DNA from: Maribacter hydrothermalis
Lineage (GTDB): Bacteria > Bacteroidota > Bacteroidia > Flavobacteriales > Flavobacteriaceae
Direction of reading: 5' to 3'
DNA length: 64,000 nt
NCBI RefSeq assembly: GCF_001913155.1
Contig: NZ_CP018760.1
Coordinates: 2,108,001 to 2,172,000, forward strand
Positions within the stretch are counted from its first letter, which is position 1. Every line of letters begins with the position of its first letter. The notes under the pieces are model-generated. The model ran no database searches, was not told the DNA's origin, and saw only the letters and a list, made by a program, of their open reading frames with translations. The position numbers and the translations under genes are program-made. Below, piece by piece: positions 1,998-10,005 of this stretch.

Positions 1998-2023
1998 AAT
2001 AGATATATTTAAAAATATCTATT
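1998..2023. promoter_or_regulatory. Inverted repeat upstream of the AAA/DUF4143 gene
   Basis: AATAGATAT at 1998-2006 is repeated as ATATCTATT at 2015-2023, a perfect 9-base inverted repeat with an 8-base AT-only spacer. Its place 38 bases before the start codon at 1960 suits an operator or a leader hairpin. In DNA this AT-rich it could be chance. Confidence 0.25.
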
Positions 2024-2200
2024 TGTGCAATTAATGTAGATTTAAAGATTAATAAGGAAGAAAAATAATTTATTTAGTAATTAGGTTTTTTTTAAAAAAG
2101 TACATTGGTAAGCTTAATAGGATTAGCCAAGTGTGTGTTGAAATTCAGAAATTAATATTGCGAAATTTAAACATTTAAAATAATAGGTTAATCGGTGAAT

Positions 2201-2578
2201 TTACTTCTTTTCTACCCGTAAAATCTTCTCCATTTTACGACCGTTTGCAAATTCATCTATCAGCTTTTCCATTTGTCTACATAGTTTGTAGACATCAAAC
2301 TCATCTTCAATTTCTTCTATACGATAGCCACAAACAACCCCTTTAATTAGGTGTGCATTAGTATGTATTTTTGCTTCTTTAAAAAACTCCCTAAACGTTA
2401 CTTTCTCTTCAAGAAGCGTTTGTAATTTGTTTTCGTTAAAGCCCGTAAACCATTCAAGTACTTGGTGGAATTCTTCTTTAGTTCTCCCGTTTTTTTCCAA
2501 TCTATTCCAATAGAGAGGGTAAATAGATGCAAAAATCATATTCGCTACTTTTTCATTTTTTTCGGGAGTAACTTTCAT
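2201..2578 (-). CDS. DUF2200 family protein
   Basis: A 125-residue soluble protein, full length for the family. I recognise the DUF2200 pattern: IFASIYPLYWNRLEKNGRTKEE at the start (position 15 onward), WFTGFNENKLQTLLEEKVTF in the middle, then IKGVVCGYRIEEIED and a closing KLIDEFANGRKMEKILR. No enzymatic role is known; members occur singly in very diverse bacteria and are typical of mobile accessory sets. ATG start at 2578. It is the most downstream gene of the one-directional block. A 62-base spacer separates it from the preceding gene (2641-2919) and about 240 bases of non-coding AT-rich DNA follow it. Confidence 0.88.
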   Translation of the reverse strand: MKVTPEKNEKVANMIFASIYPLYWNRLEKNGRTKEEFHQVLEWFTGFNENKLQTLLEEKVTFREFFKEAKIHTNAHLIKGVVCGYRIEEIEDEFDVYKLCRQMEKLIDEFANGRKMEKILRVEKK

Positions 2579-2640
2579 TTTTGGTGATTATAAGTTGTAT
2601 TTGTCGGTTCAGCTTAAGACTTTCTTTCTATTTTTAAACA

Positions 2641-2919
2641 CTATTGGCTTCTTTGTTTTAAGTTAAAGATATCAATGAATTTGTGCAATTCATCTTCCAT
2701 ATCTGCTGTAGGAAAGTATTTTCTCATTTCAGAATCGTATTCTATCCACTTTTCTAATCCAGAATCTTTTGCAAAAGAATACATAATTTGCTCTATATCA
2801 TCAGTTTCTTTTGAGATGTCGTCATCATTATCTTTATAGCTGTTAAGCATCCATTCTCCGCAATACATTATCGTTAGTAAAGTTTTATATTGTTTTTTTG
2901 TCAATTCTATTTTCATCAA
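2641..2919 (-). CDS. Small hypothetical protein paired with the 2885-3166 gene
   Basis: A 92-residue acidic soluble protein with no signal peptide or membrane segment. I do not recognise a named domain. It begins MMKIELTKKQYKTLL, and its C-terminal half is rich in Asp, Glu and aromatic residues (PTADMEDELHKFIDIF). Its start overlaps the 3' end of the preceding gene by 35 bases, so the two are probably translationally coupled and may act together. My recollection is that similar 90-100 residue pairs occur side by side in unrelated bacteria, but I cannot name the family. Two adjacent ATG codons are possible starts (2919 and 2916). Confidence 0.7.
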   Translation of the reverse strand: MMKIELTKKQYKTLLTIMYCGEWMLNSYKDNDDDISKETDDIEQIMYSFAKDSGLEKWIEYDSEMRKYFPTADMEDELHKFIDIFNLKQRSQ

Positions 2920-3166
2920 ATGGCTGTTTTGGGAGTTTTTTTAAATTCTTAATATATCTGGCATTATTGTACGGTTCACTAGTTTTCATTATTTGAAATA
3001 ATTCAACTGAGATACATTGTCCAATCATTTGTCTAGTTTGAGAATCATCAAACTCCTGACTTCGCAATCTATCGAAAGTGGTTTTTGTTTCAGGAGGATT
3101 GTTTTCCTTGATTTGATTTTTTACTATTTCAAGAATTTGATTTCTTAATATTTCGTTTGTCTCCAT
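2885..3166 (-). CDS. Small hypothetical protein, first gene of a two-gene cassette
   Basis: I place the start at the ATG at 3166 (METNEILRNQ...), giving 93 residues. A TTG at 3193 would add nine residues, but these would be encoded by the recombination-core-like sequence of the upstream spacer, so the extension is unlikely. The protein is charged and soluble. It has a conserved-looking core, NQIKENNPPETKTTFDRL (about residues 16-33), then MIGQCISVELFQIMK and a closing IKNLKKLPKQPFDE. I have seen the NPPETK...FDRL pattern in short proteins of unknown function, but cannot attach a name. It overlaps the next gene (2641-2919) by 35 bases. Confidence 0.7.
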   Translation of the reverse strand: METNEILRNQILEIVKNQIKENNPPETKTTFDRLRSQEFDDSQTRQMIGQCISVELFQIMKTSEPYNNARYIKNLKKLPKQPFDENRIDKKTI

Positions 3167-3240
3167 AAATAGATGGTTTAGATTGTTACCCAACGTTTTT
3201 TCTGTCCGAGTTGGCTTTTTCGCATCAGTGGTAAGTCCAT
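3167..3240 (-). repeat. Cassette-boundary (attC-like) spacer with core TTGTTACCCAACGTT
   Basis: The core at 3183-3197 reads TTGTTACCCAACGTT on the plus strand. On the coding strand it is AACGTTGGGTAACAA, containing GTTGGGT, which fits the integron core consensus GTTRRRY. It lies just upstream of the 3166 start, as do related cores at 4423-4433 and 5901-5913 before their genes. The rest of the spacer holds the stretch GCCAACTCGG without an obvious long stem. Assignment as a recombination site is inference. Confidence 0.45.
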
Positions 3241-3585
3241 TTATTCCAATCGAGTAATTTTTTCATCAAACCAAACATCTTCATAACCTTTACTATCAAT
3301 TTGAAATCTAAATCCGATATCAAGACCTAAATACTTTGATATTTCTGGTTGCATTTCAATTAAATGCTCAATACAAATTGGTTTAAAGAAATCATCAGAA
3401 TCAGACCATTCTCCGCTCCAAATATACCAACCATTCATTGTTCCGTGTGCTGGATGTCTTAATCCATTTATTGGTTCAATCTCTAAATCAGTTGCTATTC
3501 CAACAAAGAGTTGTCCGTCTAAAGGCTTAAATTCCGAATTATATTTTTTACAAATTGACTTTTGAGATTCAATATTTTCCTTCAA
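3241..3585 (-). CDS. Imm33-like (immunity protein-like) domain protein
   Basis: A 114-residue soluble protein. The pattern INGLRHPAHGTMNGWYIWSGE (positions 39-59), DDFFKPICIEHLIEM, YLGLDIGFRFQIDSKGYEDVWFDE matches proteins I know as Imm33-domain or immunity-protein-like, which were defined as immunity partners of polymorphic toxins. No toxin gene is adjacent, so it may be an orphan immunity gene. The start is a TTG at 3585: a TAG lies in frame five codons upstream, and the next ATG falls inside the conserved core. The coding strand enters this gene directly from the 84-base repeat at 3606-3689. Family assignment is from memory of the motif order. Confidence 0.65.
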   Translation of the reverse strand: MKENIESQKSICKKYNSEFKPLDGQLFVGIATDLEIEPINGLRHPAHGTMNGWYIWSGEWSDSDDFFKPICIEHLIEMQPEISKYLGLDIGFRFQIDSKGYEDVWFDEKITRLE

Positions 3586-3605
3586 TATTTCGATTTTCTA
3601 AAATT

Positions 3606-3689
3606 GCGCGGACTTGAAAAATATACCCAAGCCCTTAAATTAAGTACTTTCCGCCCTATTTGCTACAGGTATTGTTGTCGCACGTTTTT
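3606..3689 (-). repeat. 84-base attC-like repeat, copy A
   Basis: This spacer aligns along its length with 7831-7914, about three quarters identical by eye. Shared blocks on the plus strand are GCGGACTT, CCCAAGCC, TTAAAT, CCCTATTTGCTA, AGG and ATTGTT ... CGTTTTT. In both copies it sits directly after the stop codon of one gene and before the next, with the same orientation relative to transcription. Its gene-proximal end GTTGTCGCACGTTT resembles the 5' boundary of its own cassette, GTTGTAGAACATTT before 4403, at 11 of 14 positions. That match is expected if both ends derive from one recombination site. Confidence 0.6.
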
Positions 3690-3695
3690 ACTTAA

Positions 3696-3872
3696 TTAAT
3701 CGTTTTTTATTTTCTCTCTAATTATTATATAACTCAGAGTTATAAAAATGCATATTCCGACTGTCAATAATCCGTATTGGAGTAATCCTGTAAAAACAAG
3801 TGTAACAAATCCATAATAGCGAAAATTACTCGATTTTTCAACTAGTTGATTTATTACATTATTATTTTCCAT
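3696..3872 (-). CDS. Small membrane protein, 58 residues
   Basis: An open reading frame of 58 codons from ATG 3872 to TAA 3696. The N-terminus is polar (MENNNVINQLVEKSSN); two hydrophobic stretches follow, YYGFVTLVFTGLLQYG and LTVGICIFITLSYIII, and the end is basic (REKIKND). It may be a helical hairpin in the inner membrane. I recognise no family. Only 63 bases separate it from the pseudopilin-like gene upstream, with no repeat between, so the two may share one cassette. The 84-base repeat copy A begins within about six bases of its stop. Confidence 0.5.
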   Translation of the reverse strand: MENNNVINQLVEKSSNFRYYGFVTLVFTGLLQYGLLTVGICIFITLSYIIIREKIKND

Positions 3873-3935
3873 TAAGAAATAGCAGACAATACAGACTATA
3901 CTAATTATATAAAGTCTAACAATTTTTAATTTTTT

Positions 3936-4403
3936 TTATTTCGATTTAATGTCATCCTCAGTTTTAAATTCGCCATCAGGACCAGCAGACATAATTAAAA
4001 ATCCTTTTCCGTTTTCCGTAATTGTAAATTCATATTCCCTATTCCAAGCGTCTTTTTTCCAATCTTGTCTTATTGGATTATTTCCGATTAGTTCTTTCAG
4101 GTCTGATGGGTATTGTCCTAATTTTTCATTCCAATTTTCCATTCTTTGGCTAATTTCGGCTATTTCTTTTTCAGTTTTATCCGGATAGATAGAAGTTCGT
4201 TGATAACCGAAAAATAGAAATGCGCTTATACTTCCAACTACTACAAACAAAATGACCATTATTGAACTCGGTTGCAAAAAATATTTTTGAATAGGTCTTT
4301 TATTACCGTCTTCTTTTTCTTTTTTACCTATTAGTTTACGATGTTTATAATCTTCACGAATTAGGCCAAATTCTACCAAAGTCGAAAGTATTAATTCAAT
4401 CAT
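3936..4403 (-). CDS. Membrane-anchored protein with pseudopilin (GspG)-like C-terminus
   Basis: A 155-residue protein. After about 48 polar residues comes one membrane segment (IMVILFVVVGSISAFLFFGY, about 48-67). The C-terminal part has the order YPSDLKELIG, DAWNREYEF and SAGPDGEFKTEDDI, which closely follows the C-terminal half of type II secretion major pseudopilins (GspG), including the Asp-rich calcium-binding loop SAGPDGxxxTEDDI. The usual prepilin cleavage motif and N-terminal pilin helix are absent, and no secretion genes are near, so it is probably not a pilin. ATG start at 4403. The core-like sequence TTCTACAACG (4424-4433) lies about 20 bases upstream. Confidence 0.65.
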   Translation of the reverse strand: MIELILSTLVEFGLIREDYKHRKLIGKKEKEDGNKRPIQKYFLQPSSIMVILFVVVGSISAFLFFGYQRTSIYPDKTEKEIAEISQRMENWNEKLGQYPSDLKELIGNNPIRQDWKKDAWNREYEFTITENGKGFLIMSAGPDGEFKTEDDIKSK

Positions 4404-4420
4404 TTTGTTGATTTTGGTAA

Positions 4421-4460
4421 ATGTTCTACAACGTTACGGCTAAGCGCAGTGCGGAGGCAA
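4421..4460 (-). repeat. Cassette-boundary (attC-like) spacer with core GTTCTACAACG
   Basis: On the plus strand AAATGTTCTACAACGTT (4420-4436) is followed by AGTGCGGAGGCAAGG. The same order, AAATGTTGTACAACGGT then AGTGCGG and CAAGG, appears in the spacer at 5898-5944. Both lie immediately upstream of a minus-strand gene. The coding-strand reading CGTTGTAGAAC matches CGTTGTACAAC there at all but one position. Function as a recombination site is inferred. Confidence 0.45.
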
Positions 4461-4469
4461 GGAAACTTT

Positions 4470-5103
4470 TTAATTCCTTAACCATAGGGTGTCATTTTTA
4501 TTATATGCCACAAGACCTAAATTCCTTGCAATAAATATCTGGTTGGGTTCCCTAACAGGATTGGTTATTTGCAGGATATTTTGATATGTTTTACCCTCGA
4601 GGGATAAAGTAACGAATAATTGAAAGATTGAAGATTCCAGACCATCGTTTAGAGATTCAAAACTTTTTACGGAAATGGAATCATTTATAATTTCCAAATC
4701 AAATCTTAAATCATCGATTGCGAATGAGTTAAGAACCAATTCTCCTTTATTAAAATTTCGTACTTCATTAAAAAAAACTTGTATTTCCATCAGGGGTCTT
4801 ATGAAATGAGAGATATGAACTAAAACATTCCCTATTTCGACCTCCAATTGGAATTAAGGCACTTAGTCCAGGGTTTTCAAATTCTATCGTGAAAGGTTCA
4901 CTTATTTGGTATTCAGAAGAAAGTTCAATAGTTTTTCCCTGTCCCTGAAAATGATATTCCGGCCCCCTTGGAAGTAAAATCCATTCACTGTCTGCGATTT
5001 CAAAATCGAACCCATCACATTCTAGTGTTATAATTTCAGGTCCATCATCAATAGTACAACCTGAGACAAAAGCCATTAGAAGATAGATACTTATTTTTTT
5101 CAT
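4470..5103 (-). pseudogene. Lipoprotein gene interrupted by a frameshift in a T8 tract
   Basis: The reading frame starting at ATG 5103 encodes a lipoprotein signal (MKKISIYLLMAFVSGCTID, lipobox SGC) and runs 111 residues to a stop at 4768. A second frame, open from before 4847 to 4470, continues to ...LGLVAYNKNDTLWLRN. On the coding strand the first frame ends in a run of eight T (plus-strand A8 at 4770-4777). Removing one T joins the two frames as ...GNTSFF-NEVRNF... into a single protein of about 210 residues. So this is one lipoprotein gene that is disrupted, phase-variable by slippage, or carries a sequencing error. I do not recognise the family. Read alone, the downstream frame would be a 125-residue protein from 4847 without a signal peptide, which seems unlikely. 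Confidence 0.65.
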
Positions 5104-5163
5104 TCAAACATTTGCTAAATTATTAAAGAAAAAACTTTTTTTTTGACACAGTACCTATGATTT

Positions 5164-5277
5164 CGTTGCGGACTTTTACAACGGAAATTGTCCGGGAGAA
5201 ATCGGTCCCTGTTAATGGTTGATAGGTTTAAATTTAACGATTATTTAGCAATGAATTATAGCCGGTGGTGCGCAACG
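5164..5277 (-). repeat. 114-base attC-like palindromic spacer bounded by CGTTGCG/CGCAACG
   Basis: CGTTGCG at 5164-5170 is inverted as CGCAACG at 5271-5277. The inner part holds GGAC at 5170-5173 against GTCC at 5190-5193, and CCGGGAGAAATCGG, so a long imperfect cruciform is possible. The right end touches the stop codon of the 5278-5883 gene. The total length falls in the size range known for attC sites (roughly 55-140 bases). It is a different variant from the 84-base repeats. Confidence 0.5.
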
Positions 5278-5883
5278 TTATTTATTATATTTCCTATTGA
5301 TTTTCTCTCTGATTTTAATTCTATCGTAACTCTCAAAAAATAAATTATTCAATTCAGGCTGATAATCACTTATCCTAAGATCTATCTCTGAACCTTCACA
5401 TTTTGAAACTACAATGCAATCTATACTGTCTTTATGTTTTCTTGTTCTAAATTCGTACCGCTCTCCAAGAAAATTATAAGATATATACAAATCAAGATAA
5501 GTATTTGAGGGATAAGCTATTCTTTCTATTTTCCCTTTTATTTTCTTTCCTTTTTCTATCAAATCTAAAGGATTGATAGATTTTCGGGTAAGTAAAATGT
5601 CGGAGTATTCGGGGTTGTTTCGGTCATATATTACTTTATAGAATTCATTTTTTTCTGCTTTTCCATTCCAGGAATCTGTTTCATATATCCATTTATCATT
5701 ATGTAGGAATTTATAACTCACACGACTTCTTTTACCTTTTTTTACGCTAAGGATTTTCGCATAAGAAAAAGCTTTGTTTTCATTTATTCTTTTTTCTTTA
5801 CTACTTTCATTCCAATGTATTACAGTTATTACAGCAACAACGAGTAAAATGGAACCTAAATGTTTCCTTAAAACTTCTTTCAA
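5278..5883 (-). CDS. Membrane-anchored protein with two DUF3592-like repeats
   Basis: A 201-residue protein. One N-terminal membrane segment (LGSILLVVAVITVIHW, about 9-24) is followed by a polar domain. Two similar segments can be seen: AKILSVKKGKRSRVSYKF ... YKVIYDRNNPEYSDILL (about 42-99) and a second from GKIERIAYPSNTYLDLYISYNF onward. The Y-x-V-x-Y-D-x-x-N-P-E pattern is that of DUF3592-like extracytoplasmic domains. The role is unknown. The start is a TTG at 5883, with no in-frame ATG before the membrane segment. The stop codon lies inside the palindromic spacer at its 3' end, and the core GTTGTACAAC lies about 18 bases upstream. Composition is very AT-rich, as in the rest of this block. 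Confidence 0.55.
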   Translation of the reverse strand: MKEVLRKHLGSILLVVAVITVIHWNESSKEKRINENKAFSYAKILSVKKGKRSRVSYKFLHNDKWIYETDSWNGKAEKNEFYKVIYDRNNPEYSDILLTRKSINPLDLIEKGKKIKGKIERIAYPSNTYLDLYISYNFLGERYEFRTRKHKDSIDCIVVSKCEGSEIDLRISDYQPELNNLFFESYDRIKIREKINRKYNK

Positions 5884-5895
5884 TAAATATAGGTT

Positions 5896-5950
5896 TAAAT
5901 GTTGTACAACGGTCTCGAATAGGCAAAGTGCGGGATTTCAAGGCACTTCA
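5896..5950 (-). repeat. Cassette-boundary (attC-like) spacer with core GTTGTACAAC and AAGTGC hairpin
   Basis: The self-complementary 10-mer GTTGTACAAC is at 5901-5910. A 6-base stem follows, AAGTGC (5926-5931) with GCACTT (5943-5948), loop GGGATTTCAAG. The order core, AGTGCGG, CAAGG is shared with the spacer at 4421-4460. It stands directly before the 5278-5883 gene. On the coding strand, GCTCAAC near the stop of the 6039-7703 gene fits the RYYYAAC end expected for an attC site. Confidence 0.45.
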
Positions 5951-6038
5951 CTATCAAACCACTACTTTGTTATTATAGTCTTTAAAGTTCAAATTTACCT
6001 AATCGCCCGTATTGCTTATATTTATTGTTGAGCTTTCG

Positions 6039-7703
6039 TTATTCTTTTTCCTCAGTTCCCATTAGTCTTTCTCTAATCTGAGATTTCTTATGATAAAATC
6101 TATGATTCAGCTTTGTAGATTCAACTACTACATATTTCAATCTACCATTATTATAAAGTTCAATAGTCTTTCCAATCAAATTGAGGATATATTTTTGTAA
6201 GGTCAAATTAATGATTCTAGCTGGAACTTGTAGAATCATTGGTTTATTATTCTTTTCTCCAGTAACTAATGAACCGTCAGAACCGACATTAATTTTAATT
6301 GTACTATCTTCAAATCCTTCTGACTTAAGTACTAGATAATTACAAAAAACAGACTGAGTAAATTGTTCTGAAAATTCCTTAATAGAAATTCTCTCGCCTT
6401 GTTGAGTGAGGAAGCCACTTTTTAGTTTTTCTAATTCCTCAGGAAAGTTTATTGTATCAATAGGGTTAATATCTTGGTATTCTTTGATGTGAGGAGTAAA
6501 CTTTACATTTTTAAGCATTTTACTAAGAGTGCTTTTCTCTGATGAATCAATAAAACCTTTATTATCAATTTCAGATGTAAAAAATTTCTCTCCATTAAAT
6601 AATTGATATTCAACTTGTAAATATTCTGATTCTGTGTATAGCCAGAAATTATATAAAAACTGTGAAGAATGAATAGCTCTTTTTATAAAGTCGCCATAAG
6701 GTTCTAAATCTTTTAAAACGAGCATTGATTTTCTATCAGATGTTTTTAATTCAACTATTCTAAAGCCTTGTGATTCAATTCCAGAATAAAAGTCTAATAA
6801 TTTGCCATCATCTCTTATATTAATTAAGGTTTTATAATATTTATTTACTTCGGATTGTACATTTTCTAGGTTGTCAAATCCGAAAATTGTCTCAGAAATC
6901 CGAACTAACTTGAAAATCAGTAGAATTCTTTTTAATATTTCAGATAATTCCTGTCGTGTTAATTTGAATTCAAAAACATTTCCACTTTTATTGAAGCCAC
7001 AAATTATTTCATTGTTTATTATTCTTGAGTTATGGTGATATGCAATATTTCTCCATTGATTTAATCTAATATCATGCGGTTGCAAAATCAAAAGTTCTGT
7101 CAACTCCGTAGTATTTATTAACTCATCAATTACGACACCTAAATCTTTCTGTTTTATCTCTGTGATATCATATTGCTTATTTCTTTTTATCTTATTGAGT
7201 TGAAGAAGCATTTTAAAAAAGGATTTTGACAATCCTTCAATTGTTTGACCAATCATATGCAATGATTCTTCAACGAAATCTTCAATACACAATTTATGAA
7301 GTTTCATTTGATTGTTATGTAGACTCCAAAACCTTGAAACACTCTGAGTTGTTTCAGGCATCCATTGTGCATATGATTCAATTGTTAGTTTTTCGTTCTT
7401 TTCTTTAGCTCCATTAAAAATGTCTAATATATTGTCAAGAAACCTCAAAGAATCTGGATATTCCTTATAAACCGATAAATATGCTAACCAATTGGATGTT
7501 AAATCAGAAACAGCGTATTTTTTTAAGTTTTCTTGATTTGAGAAATATGGAGCAAATGAATCTATTATTGAAACTTTAATATCATCAGGGGTTAGTCCAA
7601 AGTCATAAAAATGAGAAAGAGGACTTACTTTGTCATAATATTTTACTTTCTTATTCTCCATCAGTTTGCAGTACGGTTTTTCATAATGTTTGTTAAGGCA
7701 CAT
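6039..7703 (-). CDS. Large orphan protein with HEPN-like R-x4-H motif
   Basis: A 554-residue soluble protein with no signal peptide. I recognise no named family. Around residues 188-262 there is a helical segment, DLGVVIDELINTTELTELL ... IRLNQWRNIAYHHNSRI. R218-N-I-A-Y-H223 fits the R-x4-6-H catalytic motif of HEPN ribonucleases, with the usual Asn after Arg. HEPN domains are common in phage-defence and toxin proteins, so an RNase role is a reasonable hypothesis only. The remaining ~300 residues show no motif I can place. A second possible start is the ATG at 7661 (MENKKVKYYD), which is perhaps preferable. Very AT-rich: one 60-base line (6601-6660) has 14 G+C. It sits between two attC-like spacers. 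Confidence 0.6.
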   Translation of the reverse strand: MCLNKHYEKPYCKLMENKKVKYYDKVSPLSHFYDFGLTPDDIKVSIIDSFAPYFSNQENLKKYAVSDLTSNWLAYLSVYKEYPDSLRFLDNILDIFNGAKEKNEKLTIESYAQWMPETTQSVSRFWSLHNNQMKLHKLCIEDFVEESLHMIGQTIEGLSKSFFKMLLQLNKIKRNKQYDITEIKQKDLGVVIDELINTTELTELLILQPHDIRLNQWRNIAYHHNSRIINNEIICGFNKSGNVFEFKLTRQELSEILKRILLIFKLVRISETIFGFDNLENVQSEVNKYYKTLINIRDDGKLLDFYSGIESQGFRIVELKTSDRKSMLVLKDLEPYGDFIKRAIHSSQFLYNFWLYTESEYLQVEYQLFNGEKFFTSEIDNKGFIDSSEKSTLSKMLKNVKFTPHIKEYQDINPIDTINFPEELEKLKSGFLTQQGERISIKEFSEQFTQSVFCNYLVLKSEGFEDSTIKINVGSDGSLVTGEKNNKPMILQVPARIINLTLQKYILNLIGKTIELYNNGRLKYVVVESTKLNHRFYHKKSQIRERLMGTEEKE

Positions 7704-7812
7704 AGTTTACACAAGTTAAAGATTAAGGTTTACACTAAATTAATTTCTAATCTTGTTGCCTGGTCTGCGAGCCAAAGCTTTTTGTTTTATTTTTATCTTT
7801 TTCATTTTAAAA

Positions 7813-7833
7813 GCCAAATCAAAAAGATTTGGC
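7813..7833 (-). terminator. Perfect 8-base-stem hairpin after repeat copy B
   Basis: GCCAAATC (7813-7820) and GATTTGGC (7826-7833) form a perfect stem with a five-base loop. On the coding strand the hairpin is followed by TTTT, so it could terminate transcription leaving the 7913-9139 gene. It abuts the 84-base repeat and could instead be part of a recombination structure. Confidence 0.45.
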
Positions 7834-7914
7834 GGACTTAGCAAACACGCCCAAGCCTTTAAATATAGGACTTTATACCCTATTTGCTATAGGAATTGTT
7901 AGCAAGCGTTTTTT
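7831..7914 (-). repeat. 84-base attC-like repeat, copy B
   Basis: The second copy of the repeat seen at 3606-3689, in the same orientation and directly after a stop codon. It contains the small hairpin CCTATAGCAAATAGG and the gene-proximal end AATTGTTAGCAAGCGTT (7894-7910). That end is inverted at the other side of the gene (9149-9165) with one mismatch. The pairing of a gene's own two ends is what integron cassettes show. Confidence 0.6.
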
Positions 7915-9139
7915 ATTCCACCTCTATACTCAGCCGATTAAATTTATCGAAATAGTCAATATTCAGCTCTTCAAGTTCTTCATAAGTGACCACTTCAATG
8001 CCATTAAACATTCTATTTAGGTCTCCTGAAAATTTGTCTTTCATTTCAAGTTTTTCCTCTTTTCTGCCCGCAAGCAAAATATGGTCGAAATTTTCTGTCT
8101 TATATCCCAATTTGAATTCTATTTCTTGTTGGTTGTCTTCCCTTTCTGAATATTCTTTGTATCTCCATACTTGTTCTAAATGTGATAAATAATTGCTACT
8201 GAACTGAGGTCTTTTCGTTTTCTTTTTTACATAAAAAGTTACATCTTCTTTTTTGACTTCAAAAAAAGTTGTTTTTAGAAATTCAGGAAACTCAGTTTTG
8301 AGGATGTAATCACATTCTTCATTCGTTTTTTCATTTAAGTCATATAGATTTTTTTCATATTCCAAATCAATAAATGCGTCTCTTAAAAGAATCATTTTAT
8401 TCTGATTAAAAAACTTGTGTAATATTGTGCGTTCATTATTTTTTCTATCGTACTTGATATGTTTGTTGTAGGTTGAATTGAACTTCATTATTGATTGTTC
8501 GATTTCCTTTCTTTTTATGATTAACCAATCGTAAATCAATGGTGTTGGTAGCTTAATAAATTCTTTAGATACGATACCAGTTTTGAGTACAAAGTAATTT
8601 TCAAAATTTTTACCGATTTGATTTTTGTAACGGTTTTTATAAAAAGTTGATTCTTGGAAATTGTGAATGTTTTTATTTAGTATTTCTAGATTTTCTAAAT
8701 CTGTTATTAATCGTTTTCTCCAAGTCCTTATTGCGTTTTCAAATTCTAAAATAAAATTGTCGTGTTGACCAACTTTATTTTTCTGTATGACAGCTTGCCA
8801 TATATCTTGGGATACAGTTCCTCTCGTTTCTATATTTGTATAAAGTATTACAGGAATTGAACTTATTCTAAAATTTTCCTTTGAGTAAGATGTATCAAAA
8901 CTATTTCTGAATCTAATAATTTTTGATGCTTGTAGGCTATCTACATTACTTGCAGATGATTCGTTAGTGATTATTGCATCTATATGAAGTTTCTTGTTTT
9001 CTAATTGCTCAACAATGAATAATTTGAGTTTTTCAAATGAATTACAAAAGATTAATTCGTTTTCTTCATATCCATAATTCCTGAAAATATTCTTGTAAGT
9101 TTCCTCCGATGATTTAAAATCGTTAATTAATATTTTCAT
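7913..9139 (-). CDS. Shedu-like (DUF4263) nuclease with receiver-like N-terminal domain
   Basis: A 408-residue soluble protein. The C-terminal half follows the Shedu/SduA DUF4263 nuclease. Its parts are a helix ERTILHKFFNQNKMIL (237-252), the catalytic pattern D277 ... E294-V-K296 (CDYILK, FFEVKK), Q323 in LEQVWRY, then FDHILLAGR (351-359) and LNRMFNGIEVVTYEEL (374-389). That order of D, E-x-K, Q, GR and TYEEL is diagnostic to me. Shedu proteins are anti-phage nucleases with variable N-terminal sensor domains. Here the N-terminus (1-103) looks like a response-regulator receiver: MKILINDF, IDAIITNES and IPVILYTN strands. Asn or Ser stands where the phospho-acceptor Asp would be, suggesting a pseudo-receiver. 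No other defence subunit is adjacent. ATG start at 9139. Its flanks are 17-base inverted repeats. Confidence 0.78.
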   Translation of the reverse strand: MKILINDFKSSEETYKNIFRNYGYEENELIFCNSFEKLKLFIVEQLENKKLHIDAIITNESSASNVDSLQASKIIRFRNSFDTSYSKENFRISSIPVILYTNIETRGTVSQDIWQAVIQKNKVGQHDNFILEFENAIRTWRKRLITDLENLEILNKNIHNFQESTFYKNRYKNQIGKNFENYFVLKTGIVSKEFIKLPTPLIYDWLIIKRKEIEQSIMKFNSTYNKHIKYDRKNNERTILHKFFNQNKMILLRDAFIDLEYEKNLYDLNEKTNEECDYILKTEFPEFLKTTFFEVKKEDVTFYVKKKTKRPQFSSNYLSHLEQVWRYKEYSEREDNQQEIEFKLGYKTENFDHILLAGRKEEKLEMKDKFSGDLNRMFNGIEVVTYEELEELNIDYFDKFNRLSIEVE

Positions 9140-9148
9140 TTTTTGTCA

Positions 9149-9165
9149 AATGCTTGCTAACAATT
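9149..9165 (-). repeat. Right boundary of the Shedu-like cassette: inverted copy of 7894-7910
   Basis: AATGCTTGCTAACAATT here is the inverse complement of AATTGTTAGCAAGCGTT at 7894-7910, except for one base. The two copies bracket the 1.2-kb gene, each within about 10 bases of its start or stop codon. This is the last such site; nothing similar is seen to the right of it. Confidence 0.6.
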
Positions 9166-9359
9166 ATATATATGTACAATTACACTTATACCCTTATATC
9201 TCAGAATATATGTAAGAGATTATTTATCCAAGTTACTAATTTACTAGTAAAGAATAAACCTACAATTAACAGCTCACATGCCATTACGGGAAACCATAAT
9301 CATCATAAATTTTATACGGCTAAAGGAGGTAGGTAAGTAAATTATCCTAAAATCAACTA

Positions 9360-9528: not shown

Positions 9529-10005
9529 TTAGAATAAACTTTGCTGTTTATGGGGACTTTCATGTTCCAATAACCACTTTTTTCTATGTAATCCGCCGGC
9601 ATAACCAGTAAGTGCTCCATCAATACCAATAACTCGGTGACAAGGAATAACAATCCAAATGGGGTTTCTTGCATTTGCGGATGCGGCAGCTCTAATGGCT
9701 TTTACATCTCCTATTAATTTTGCCACTTCTAAATAGGAGGTAGTTCTTCCATACGGAATTTGTTGTAACTGCAACCATACCTTTTTTTGAAATTTAGTGC
9801 CTTCAGGATTAAGGTCCAATTGAAATTCTGTTCTTTCTCCTTTAAAATATTCATTTAGTTGGTAGACGGCATCTTCAAGAGATTCGGGAATTATATCCGT
9901 AAGTGTTTCGTCAGAGTCTAAAACAGTAATAGCGGAAATGCCTTCTGTAGTGCCAACGATTTTAGCAATTCCTAGCGGTGTATTAATATATGCAACATCG
10001 TCCAT
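9529..10005 (-). CDS. Methylated-DNA-[protein]-cysteine S-methyltransferase
   Basis: A 158-residue DNA-repair protein that transfers the methyl group from O6-methylguanine to its own cysteine. The acceptor motif I-P-C-H-R-V-I is complete (C122), the Asn hinge and recognition-helix region GRTTSYLEVAKLIGDVKAIRAAASANARNP precedes it, and GYAGGLHRKKWLLEHE follows. Length is normal for Ogt-type proteins with a short N-terminal domain; no AraC/Ada domain is fused. ATG start at 10005, 15 bases after the CNNM gene, so it is probably the last gene of an operon with the CNNM protein, serine hydrolase and hemB. Confidence 0.95.
   Translation of the reverse strand: MDDVAYINTPLGIAKIVGTTEGISAITVLDSDETLTDIIPESLEDAVYQLNEYFKGERTEFQLDLNPEGTKFQKKVWLQLQQIPYGRTTSYLEVAKLIGDVKAIRAAASANARNPIWIVIPCHRVIGIDGALTGYAGGLHRKKWLLEHESPHKQQSLF

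Follow-up and report, generated by a model that had tools for sequence, protein, structure and literature searches.

An integron-like array of single-gene cassettes in Maribacter, most likely served by a recombinase encoded elsewhere in the genome

Can a run of small genes be a mobile cassette array when no integrase lies beside it? The question is raised by a 64-kb stretch of DNA from the genus Maribacter (here called the window), taken from a genome of one contig and 4.27 Mb. A preliminary description, made from the sequence alone, had noted about ten genes on one strand, separated by palindromic spacers, and had proposed an integrase-less array of integron-type cassettes. We find that the locus, from about 9161 to 2640 on the minus strand, is an array of co-directed cassettes that is in part decayed. 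We conclude that it is very probably integron-like and that a recombinase from elsewhere in the genome most likely acts on it in trans. The proposal thus holds in substance, with the correction that the array has an attI-like leader of its own.

Cassette ends and layout of the array

The two ends of one cassette had been said to match each other inversely. We compared the 5′ flank of each gene with the reverse complement of 3′ flanks, using no motif, for 190 genes in 16 arrays. Own pairs outscored permuted pairs (reached in 0 of 10,000 permutations), with the signal diluted over the full set of genes (mean percentile, 0.58, and 0.56 within loci; own pair best in 5 of 190). The best pairs gave a rule: a cassette starts with G|TT-N7-ATT and ends with AAC-N7′-AAC, where N7′ is the reverse complement of the cassette's own N7, with an A/G difference that recurs at the eleventh base of paired ends. 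An exact upstream partner within 3.5 kb was present for 19 of 170 AACN7AAC sites; shuffled N7 gave 0.67 expected (maximum, 3 in 200), and the reversed geometry gave 1. Inverse matching of own ends is therefore far above chance in both the motif-free and the rule-based counts. This rule, and not the canonical GTTRRRY and RYYYAAC, describes the ends; the RRRY part often fails, as in GTTAGCAAGC.

All six sets of boundary coordinates noticed earlier contain, on the minus strand, a core that fits the rule (AACGTTGGGTAAC, GTTGTAGAACATT, GTTGTACAACATT, AACGTTGCGCACC, AACGTGCGACAAC, and AACGCTTGCTAAC). Overlooked were a seventh core, GTTAGCAAGCATT at 9161-9149, which is the 5′ end of the first cassette, and an attI-like docking site, namely, a leader that follows ogt and contains a promoter-like block and a dyad, the latter ending in ...AATTG|TT at 9161. 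Between 9139 and 2641, all array genes are on the minus strand; they encode 408, 554, 201, 111/125 (frame-shifted), 155, 58, 114 (Imm33-like), 102, and 92 aa. Among the window proteins scanned, most of these had no Pfam family above the cut-off, in agreement with the view that they are mostly orphans. The features of the locus are as follows.

9529-10005, minus strand: ogt, the chromosomal anchor upstream of the leader, with a close match in 34 of 36 genus genomes
9236-9265, minus strand: candidate array promoter in the leader, with TTG (9265-9263), 19 nt, and TAAATTAG (9243-9236)
9149-9193, minus strand: attI-like site, a degenerate dyad GTGTAATTGTACATATAT followed by ATAATT and G|TT (9161-9159), running into the 5′ core of cassette 1
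7898-9160, minus strand: cassette 1, with the 408-aa gene (7913-9139), 5′ core GTTAGCAAGCATT (9161-9149), and 3′ core AACGCTTGCTAAC (7910-7898)
7760-7917, minus strand: attC-like body of dispersed type B, with 73 to 91% matches at dozens of genus sites among the matches listed
6039-7703, minus strand: 554-aa gene without a family, with a degenerate 3′ end AACGAAAGCTCAAC (6040-6027) and no 5′ core found
5267-5910, minus strand: probable cassette with the 201-aa gene (5278-5883), 5′ core GTTGTACAACATT (5910-5898), and 3′ core AACGTTGCGCACC (5279-5267)
5155-5288, minus strand: attC-like body of type D; in genome G009 (L203), an 87% match lies 0.7 kb downstream of an integrase gene
4470-5103, minus strand: overlapping open reading frames of 111 and 125 aa, which look like a single frame-shifted gene, and then the tail only of an attC-like body (4470-4433)
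3674-4432, minus strand: cassette with 155-aa (T2SSG-like) and 58-aa genes, 5′ core GTTGTAGAACATT (4432-4420), and 3′ core AACGTGCGACAAC (3686-3674)
3185-3604, minus strand: Imm33-like cassette (gene, 3241-3585), 3′ core AACGTTGGGTAAC (3197-3185); 5′ core lost in the window
2641-3193, minus strand: overlapping 102-aa and 92-aa genes, probably one cassette with eroded ends; 86% matches starting near 3179 in G017 and G044 (L195)

Cassette 1 obeys the rule exactly (GTTAGCAAGCATT at 9161 versus AACGCTTGCTAAC at 7910); the ends of the 155/58-aa unit and of the 201-aa gene are imperfectly complementary. With 38 open reading frame 3′ ends of the window as controls (best control, 9 of 13), the inverse resemblance claimed for own ends held for the 408-aa gene (12 of 13) and the 155/58-aa unit (10 of 13). 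The 201-aa gene gives no support, since its 9 of 13 equals both the best control and its score versus two other cassettes. The Shedu-like label given earlier to the 408-aa protein finds no support, as this protein has no notable Pfam, NCBIfam, PADLOC, or PDB sequence match.

Movement of single cassettes and the attI-like leader

We searched the window array against 36 genomes of the genus; the figures given here refer to the matches listed. Pieces of the array are scattered over these genomes. The 155/58-aa cassette had at least eight matches, of which six were fetched (two, at 68%, were outside the fetched set). In three of the six (L189, L190, and L192), DNA similarity starts at query positions 4709, 4708, and 4709, respectively (GTT ± 1), and the sequence upstream of this breakpoint is unalike in each. 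Similarity in L188 and L193 starts 33 and 21 bases earlier, within an attC-like tail of similar type, and in L197 the coding part alone matches. On the 3′ side, L188 and L189 end at AACGTGCTACAACAA(T), L190 continues into a similar body, and similarity in L192 and L193 stops after the 155-aa gene.

Other cassettes recur in the same way. A 92% copy of the Imm33-like cassette (L191) lies directly behind an attI-like dyad with GTTACCCAACATT and ends at ACGTTGGGTAAC; the window cassette keeps the 3′ core of this copy and has lost the 5′ core. Similarity to an 80% copy of the 408-aa cassette (Maribacter L187) ends at AACGCTTGCTAACAA, and the 5′ core there is ATTAGCAAGCATT. A 239-aa cassette, 98.4% identical over 755 bp, stands at a leader in L058 and within an array in L059; the 3′ comparison ends at AAAGAACTGAG in L058, so that the 5′ breakpoint alone is informative. 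Bodies of types B, D, and E turn up repeatedly in the genus. The G009 stretch, which has the type D body 0.7 kb downstream of the recombinase gene, yielded no exact cassette pair. The mobility of single genes with breakpoints at the cores, as had been predicted, is borne out by a window cassette at other loci of related species, and the comparisons point to mobile single-gene cassettes in one orientation.

These breakpoints bear on whether the locus is an ordinary variable island, with chance-like spacers and homologous recombination between repeats. Bodies repeated over the genus would allow homologous exchange, and TGTTnnnnAACGTT as a bare motif, when as many as 2 mismatches are allowed, shows no enrichment in the window (130 occurrences versus 118.7 expected; 21 of 100 shuffles reach 130), so that the decisive evidence is comparative. 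That evidence, namely, exact 7-nt complementarity that differs between cassettes and matches within each, and similarity that begins at GTT beside unalike upstream DNA in L189, L190, and L192, largely contradicts an island already; we consider it highly improbable.

The place at which cassettes would enter was sought behind ogt, which was matched in 35 of 36 genus genomes (in one of these, merely as a distant paralogue). The region beyond ogt was fetched for 20 genomes, with one stretch of just 3.6 kb. An exonuclease-like neighbor lay within the stretch in 12 of 20, at an interval from ogt of ~130 bp to 13.6 kb. Window array genes had no protein match (E value, 1e-4) in any of the 20 stretches; six longer intervals (L057, L060, L062, L063, L064, and L066) hold mainly co-directed genes. 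A promoter-like block, TTGTAGGTTTATTC...TATATTAG, is common to 12 of the 20 aligned stretches and the window. We take it to resemble Bacteroidota promoters, and it is a candidate for the array promoter, the counterpart of Pc. A dyad (consensus, approximately ATATGTGTAATTGTACACATAT) follows in 9 of the 12 block-bearing stretches and in the window, in degenerate form in L055, L063, and the window; the dyad is a different one in L053 and L060, and none is clear in L066.

Leader similarity between species extends to the GTT after the dyad and then ends where a different gene begins. Three species (L127, L131, and L133) show the same behind another gene, which we take to encode a ClC channel: the dyad is common up to GTT, with divergence beyond. 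On sequence grounds, the leader behaves as an attI site, conserved to GTT and divergent after it, as would be expected of a fixed site with insertion at G|TT in canonical integrons. Full or partial leader matches, some of the dyad core alone, numbered 1 to 12 in 26 of 36 genus genomes. There are three in the window's genome, and the copy at 962.8 kb is followed by co-directed genes. An exact leader pattern occurred in 24 stretches from named genomes, every one of them Maribacter. The leader hardly occurs beyond this genus, with any match in 7 of 249 family genomes and a nearly full match in a single genome outside the genus.

Two further arrangements were seen near leader copies. Genes of 125 to 138 aa, alike by eye, lie divergently upstream of several copies (L081, 8036-9803; L132; L134) and may represent another kind of chromosomal anchor in addition to ogt. 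Inside ogt-linked arrays, a conserved ~195-aa gene is followed by a second leader copy (L053, 4742-5967; L054, 4395-5431; L061, 9419-10504; L062, 6646-7676).

Recombinase and attC-like bodies

A whole-genome search with PF00589 for tyrosine recombinases identified three loci in the same genome at which a 375- to 381-aa tyrosine recombinase is followed by an attI-like dyad; two of them have cassettes. The earlier suggestion of an integrase elsewhere in the genome thus stands for the recombinase, dyad, and cassettes and falls for the integron-specific insertion, which this protein does not have. Of 296 Bacteroidota genomes sampled, 70 have a relative of the recombinase. Among the loci tested, the recombinase was followed by exact cassette-end pairs in 17 of 30 and in 14 of 23 (versus 0.65 and 0.31 in controls).

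An alternative is that the host Xer or another recombinase moves the cassettes and that the recombinase beside other arrays is merely a neighbor. The genome encodes two recombinases of 300 and 296 aa, which we take to be Xer-like, and XerA was the top match in a structure search of the recombinase (rows spanning residues 103-371). Opposed to this is position: in the 31 exact cases, the first cassette has its GTT 12 to 130 nt past the stop codon of this recombinase family. We regard action by Xer as improbable and take the 375- to 381-aa family to be the likelier agent.

The three recombinases scored 219, 214, and 201 bits with TIGR02249 (cut-off, 265), leaving profile positions ~179-241 unmatched. 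The recombinase aligns to 2a3v in two pieces and to the XerC-like 4a8e in one piece. Since it is without the additional domain and below the integron-integrase cut-offs, standard tools would probably miss the system. TIGR02249 at default sensitivity was rejected as a marker: it matched all 31 genomes and all 14 controls, in no case above the cut-off, and so does not discriminate. Adjoining each recombinase (L152, 8993-11955; L153, 9935-12897; L154, 4779-7724) is a module that comprises another tyrosine recombinase-like gene, which is longer and, in L154, split, together with a 226- to 249-aa protein and two small zinc-finger-like proteins, one of them divergent from the recombinase.

In an earlier end-pairing test, z was below −2 for 6 of 9 bodies. 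Because the three others were probably cut at the wrong GTT, the test was repeated on ten bodies that each lie between two exact cassettes and were chosen without using body sequence. These are 123 to 125 or 188 to 191 nt long, and their ends form helices of 6, 4, and 5 pairs with single mismatches between. With the helix drawn from two of the ten and the best of four registers taken for each body, 138 of 150 cells paired. When 3′ ends were swapped with the same register freedom, the mean was 98.4 and the maximum was 126 (138 was reached in 0 of 2,000). One common register gave just 53% pairing, because two registers occur. Changes on both sides at several helix columns indicate covariation, and both mismatches are A.C in 10 of 10 bodies. 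Because close relatives occur among the bodies, they amount to fewer than ten independent cases. These ten related bodies form imperfect palindromic helices of the kind through which attC folds.

The sequence AAAGAACTGAG is conserved directly after the AAC of attC-like sites (arrays of L058, 7587; L055, 9305; and L153, 8123; L127, 1932; L080, reverse, 3863 and 6722). Transposase-like genes, presumably of IS110 type, lie close to it in some loci, and it likely represents an attC-targeting insertion sequence. In its position it may resemble the IS1111-attC insertion sequences; the likeness concerns the conserved sequence and the nearby transposase-like genes. A second type of cassette end, considered because the body is absent after some last cassettes, was rejected, since the recurring AAAGAACTGAG favors insertion at the attC start as simpler.

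Proposed mechanism, known integrons, and neighboring features

We propose that a fixed attI-like leader behind ogt would receive circular single-gene cassettes at G|TT, with excision as circles likewise presumed. Each cassette would comprise a gene and an attC-like site made up of AAC-N7′-AAC, a palindromic body (~125 or 190 nt), and GTT-N7-ATT. The candidate leader promoter would read into the array. The enzyme would most likely be the 375- to 381-aa integron-like recombinase family of the three other genome loci, acting in trans. The covarying hairpin suggests folding in vivo and a choice of strand, with recombination on a folded single strand as in integrons. Sequence comparison itself establishes the cassette ends, the 5′ breakpoints, the pairing within bodies, the point at which attI-like leaders diverge, and the loci that combine recombinase, dyad, and cassettes.

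Several results weigh against this proposal. No integrase is present at the window locus, where a canonical integron would have an integrase gene adjoining attI and the array. Several boundaries in the window are eroded (the 554-aa and Imm33 genes have no 5′ core, and bodies are truncated). The recombinase does not have the IntI-specific additional domain, an insertion that known integron integrases need, and the structure match fails to separate integron integrases from Xer. Exact pairs were lacking at 13 of 30 and 9 of 23 integrase loci tested. Four window spacers (90 to 330 nt), folded whole, were no better than shuffled sequence (z, +0.83, −1.77, +0.60, and −0.38). Whole-spacer folding was also weak overall and did not distinguish spacers with a core from those without (mean z, −1.85 for 18 with a core versus −1.28 for 53 without; P = 0.07). 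No excised cassette circle was seen and no empty leader was found, the short intervals in L056 and L069 being without the leader.

Part of this would fit a relic of the same origin, immobile after loss of a local integrase: an integrase is absent nearby, cores are eroded, bodies are truncated, and one gene is frame-shifted. A relic is harder to reconcile with a leader that recurs (as many as 12 matches in one genome, full or partial) and has different genes behind it in different species, with the intact ends of cassette 1 adjoining the attI-like site, and with the PF00589 whole-genome search, which had no match at the locus and thus no recombinase remnant. We consider a relic fairly unlikely and retain an array served in trans as the preferred explanation.

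Canonical integrons (IntI, attI, attC, and Pc; 2a3v) share with this system the insertion point at G|TT, one-directional single-gene cassettes, complementary cassette ends, a palindromic attC-like site, and a recombinase alignable to 2a3v on either side of the insertion. They differ in that the recombinase here has no additional domain (2a3v residues 176-243 face ~26 residues) and has ~100 extra N-terminal residues, and in that the sites have a 7-nt variable core instead of GTTRRRY, A.C mismatches, bodies of ~125 and 190 nt, and a dyad attI. The system works like an integron, yet it is without the additional domain, a defining feature of canonical ones, and without the GTTRRRY core. Treponema integrons (PMC3607928) likewise have an integrase transcribed towards attI in the same direction as the cassettes; they belong to another phylum and follow another site rule, and the recombinase here differs by the missing additional domain. 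CALIN elements (attC arrays without an integrase; IntegronFinder 2.0, PMC9024848) also have no neighboring integrase, whereas the array here has an attI-like leader. No Rfam family matched the window.

Integrons have already been recorded in Bacteroidota (PMC8618304, PMC9668308, and PMC2426708). For Bacteroidetes, IntegronFinder 2.0 (PMC9024848) names just earlier In0 elements plus a single complete integron, that of Salinibacter ruber. No description of arrays like these was found among the hits listed from the open-license literature, a coverage that leaves preprints outside, and one may exist elsewhere. We think it likely that Bacteroidota carry a widespread second integron class, with an integrase that has an extra N-terminal domain in place of the IntI additional domain, attC hairpins with regular A.C mismatches and a 7-nt cassette-specific core, a dyad attI, and many integrase-free attI-plus-promoter platforms served in trans. 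If so, cassette exchange at palindromic sites would be possible without the IntI additional domain, and free-standing docking sites could be served by a recombinase whose gene lies at another locus of the genome. A large pool of mobile orphan genes would have gone unlabeled if most of the 70 genomes with a recombinase relative carry the system.

Downstream of the array are a DUF2200 gene (2201-2578), an AAA_14/DUF4143 gene, and then a gene starting near 411, which we take to resemble a 3′-5′ exonuclease. The DUF2200 gene is matched in many genus genomes among the matches listed and is probably not a cassette; the array therefore ends near 2640, not at 1998 as first described. The AAA_14/DUF4143 ATPase gene beside the array (518-1960) matches the PADLOC candidate defense family PDC-S01. 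Within the array, two short stretches, 7675-7766 and 5111-5160, are repeated at 79 to 96% in many Maribacter genomes, the latter several times close to a contig start, which suggests that they are ends of mobile elements.

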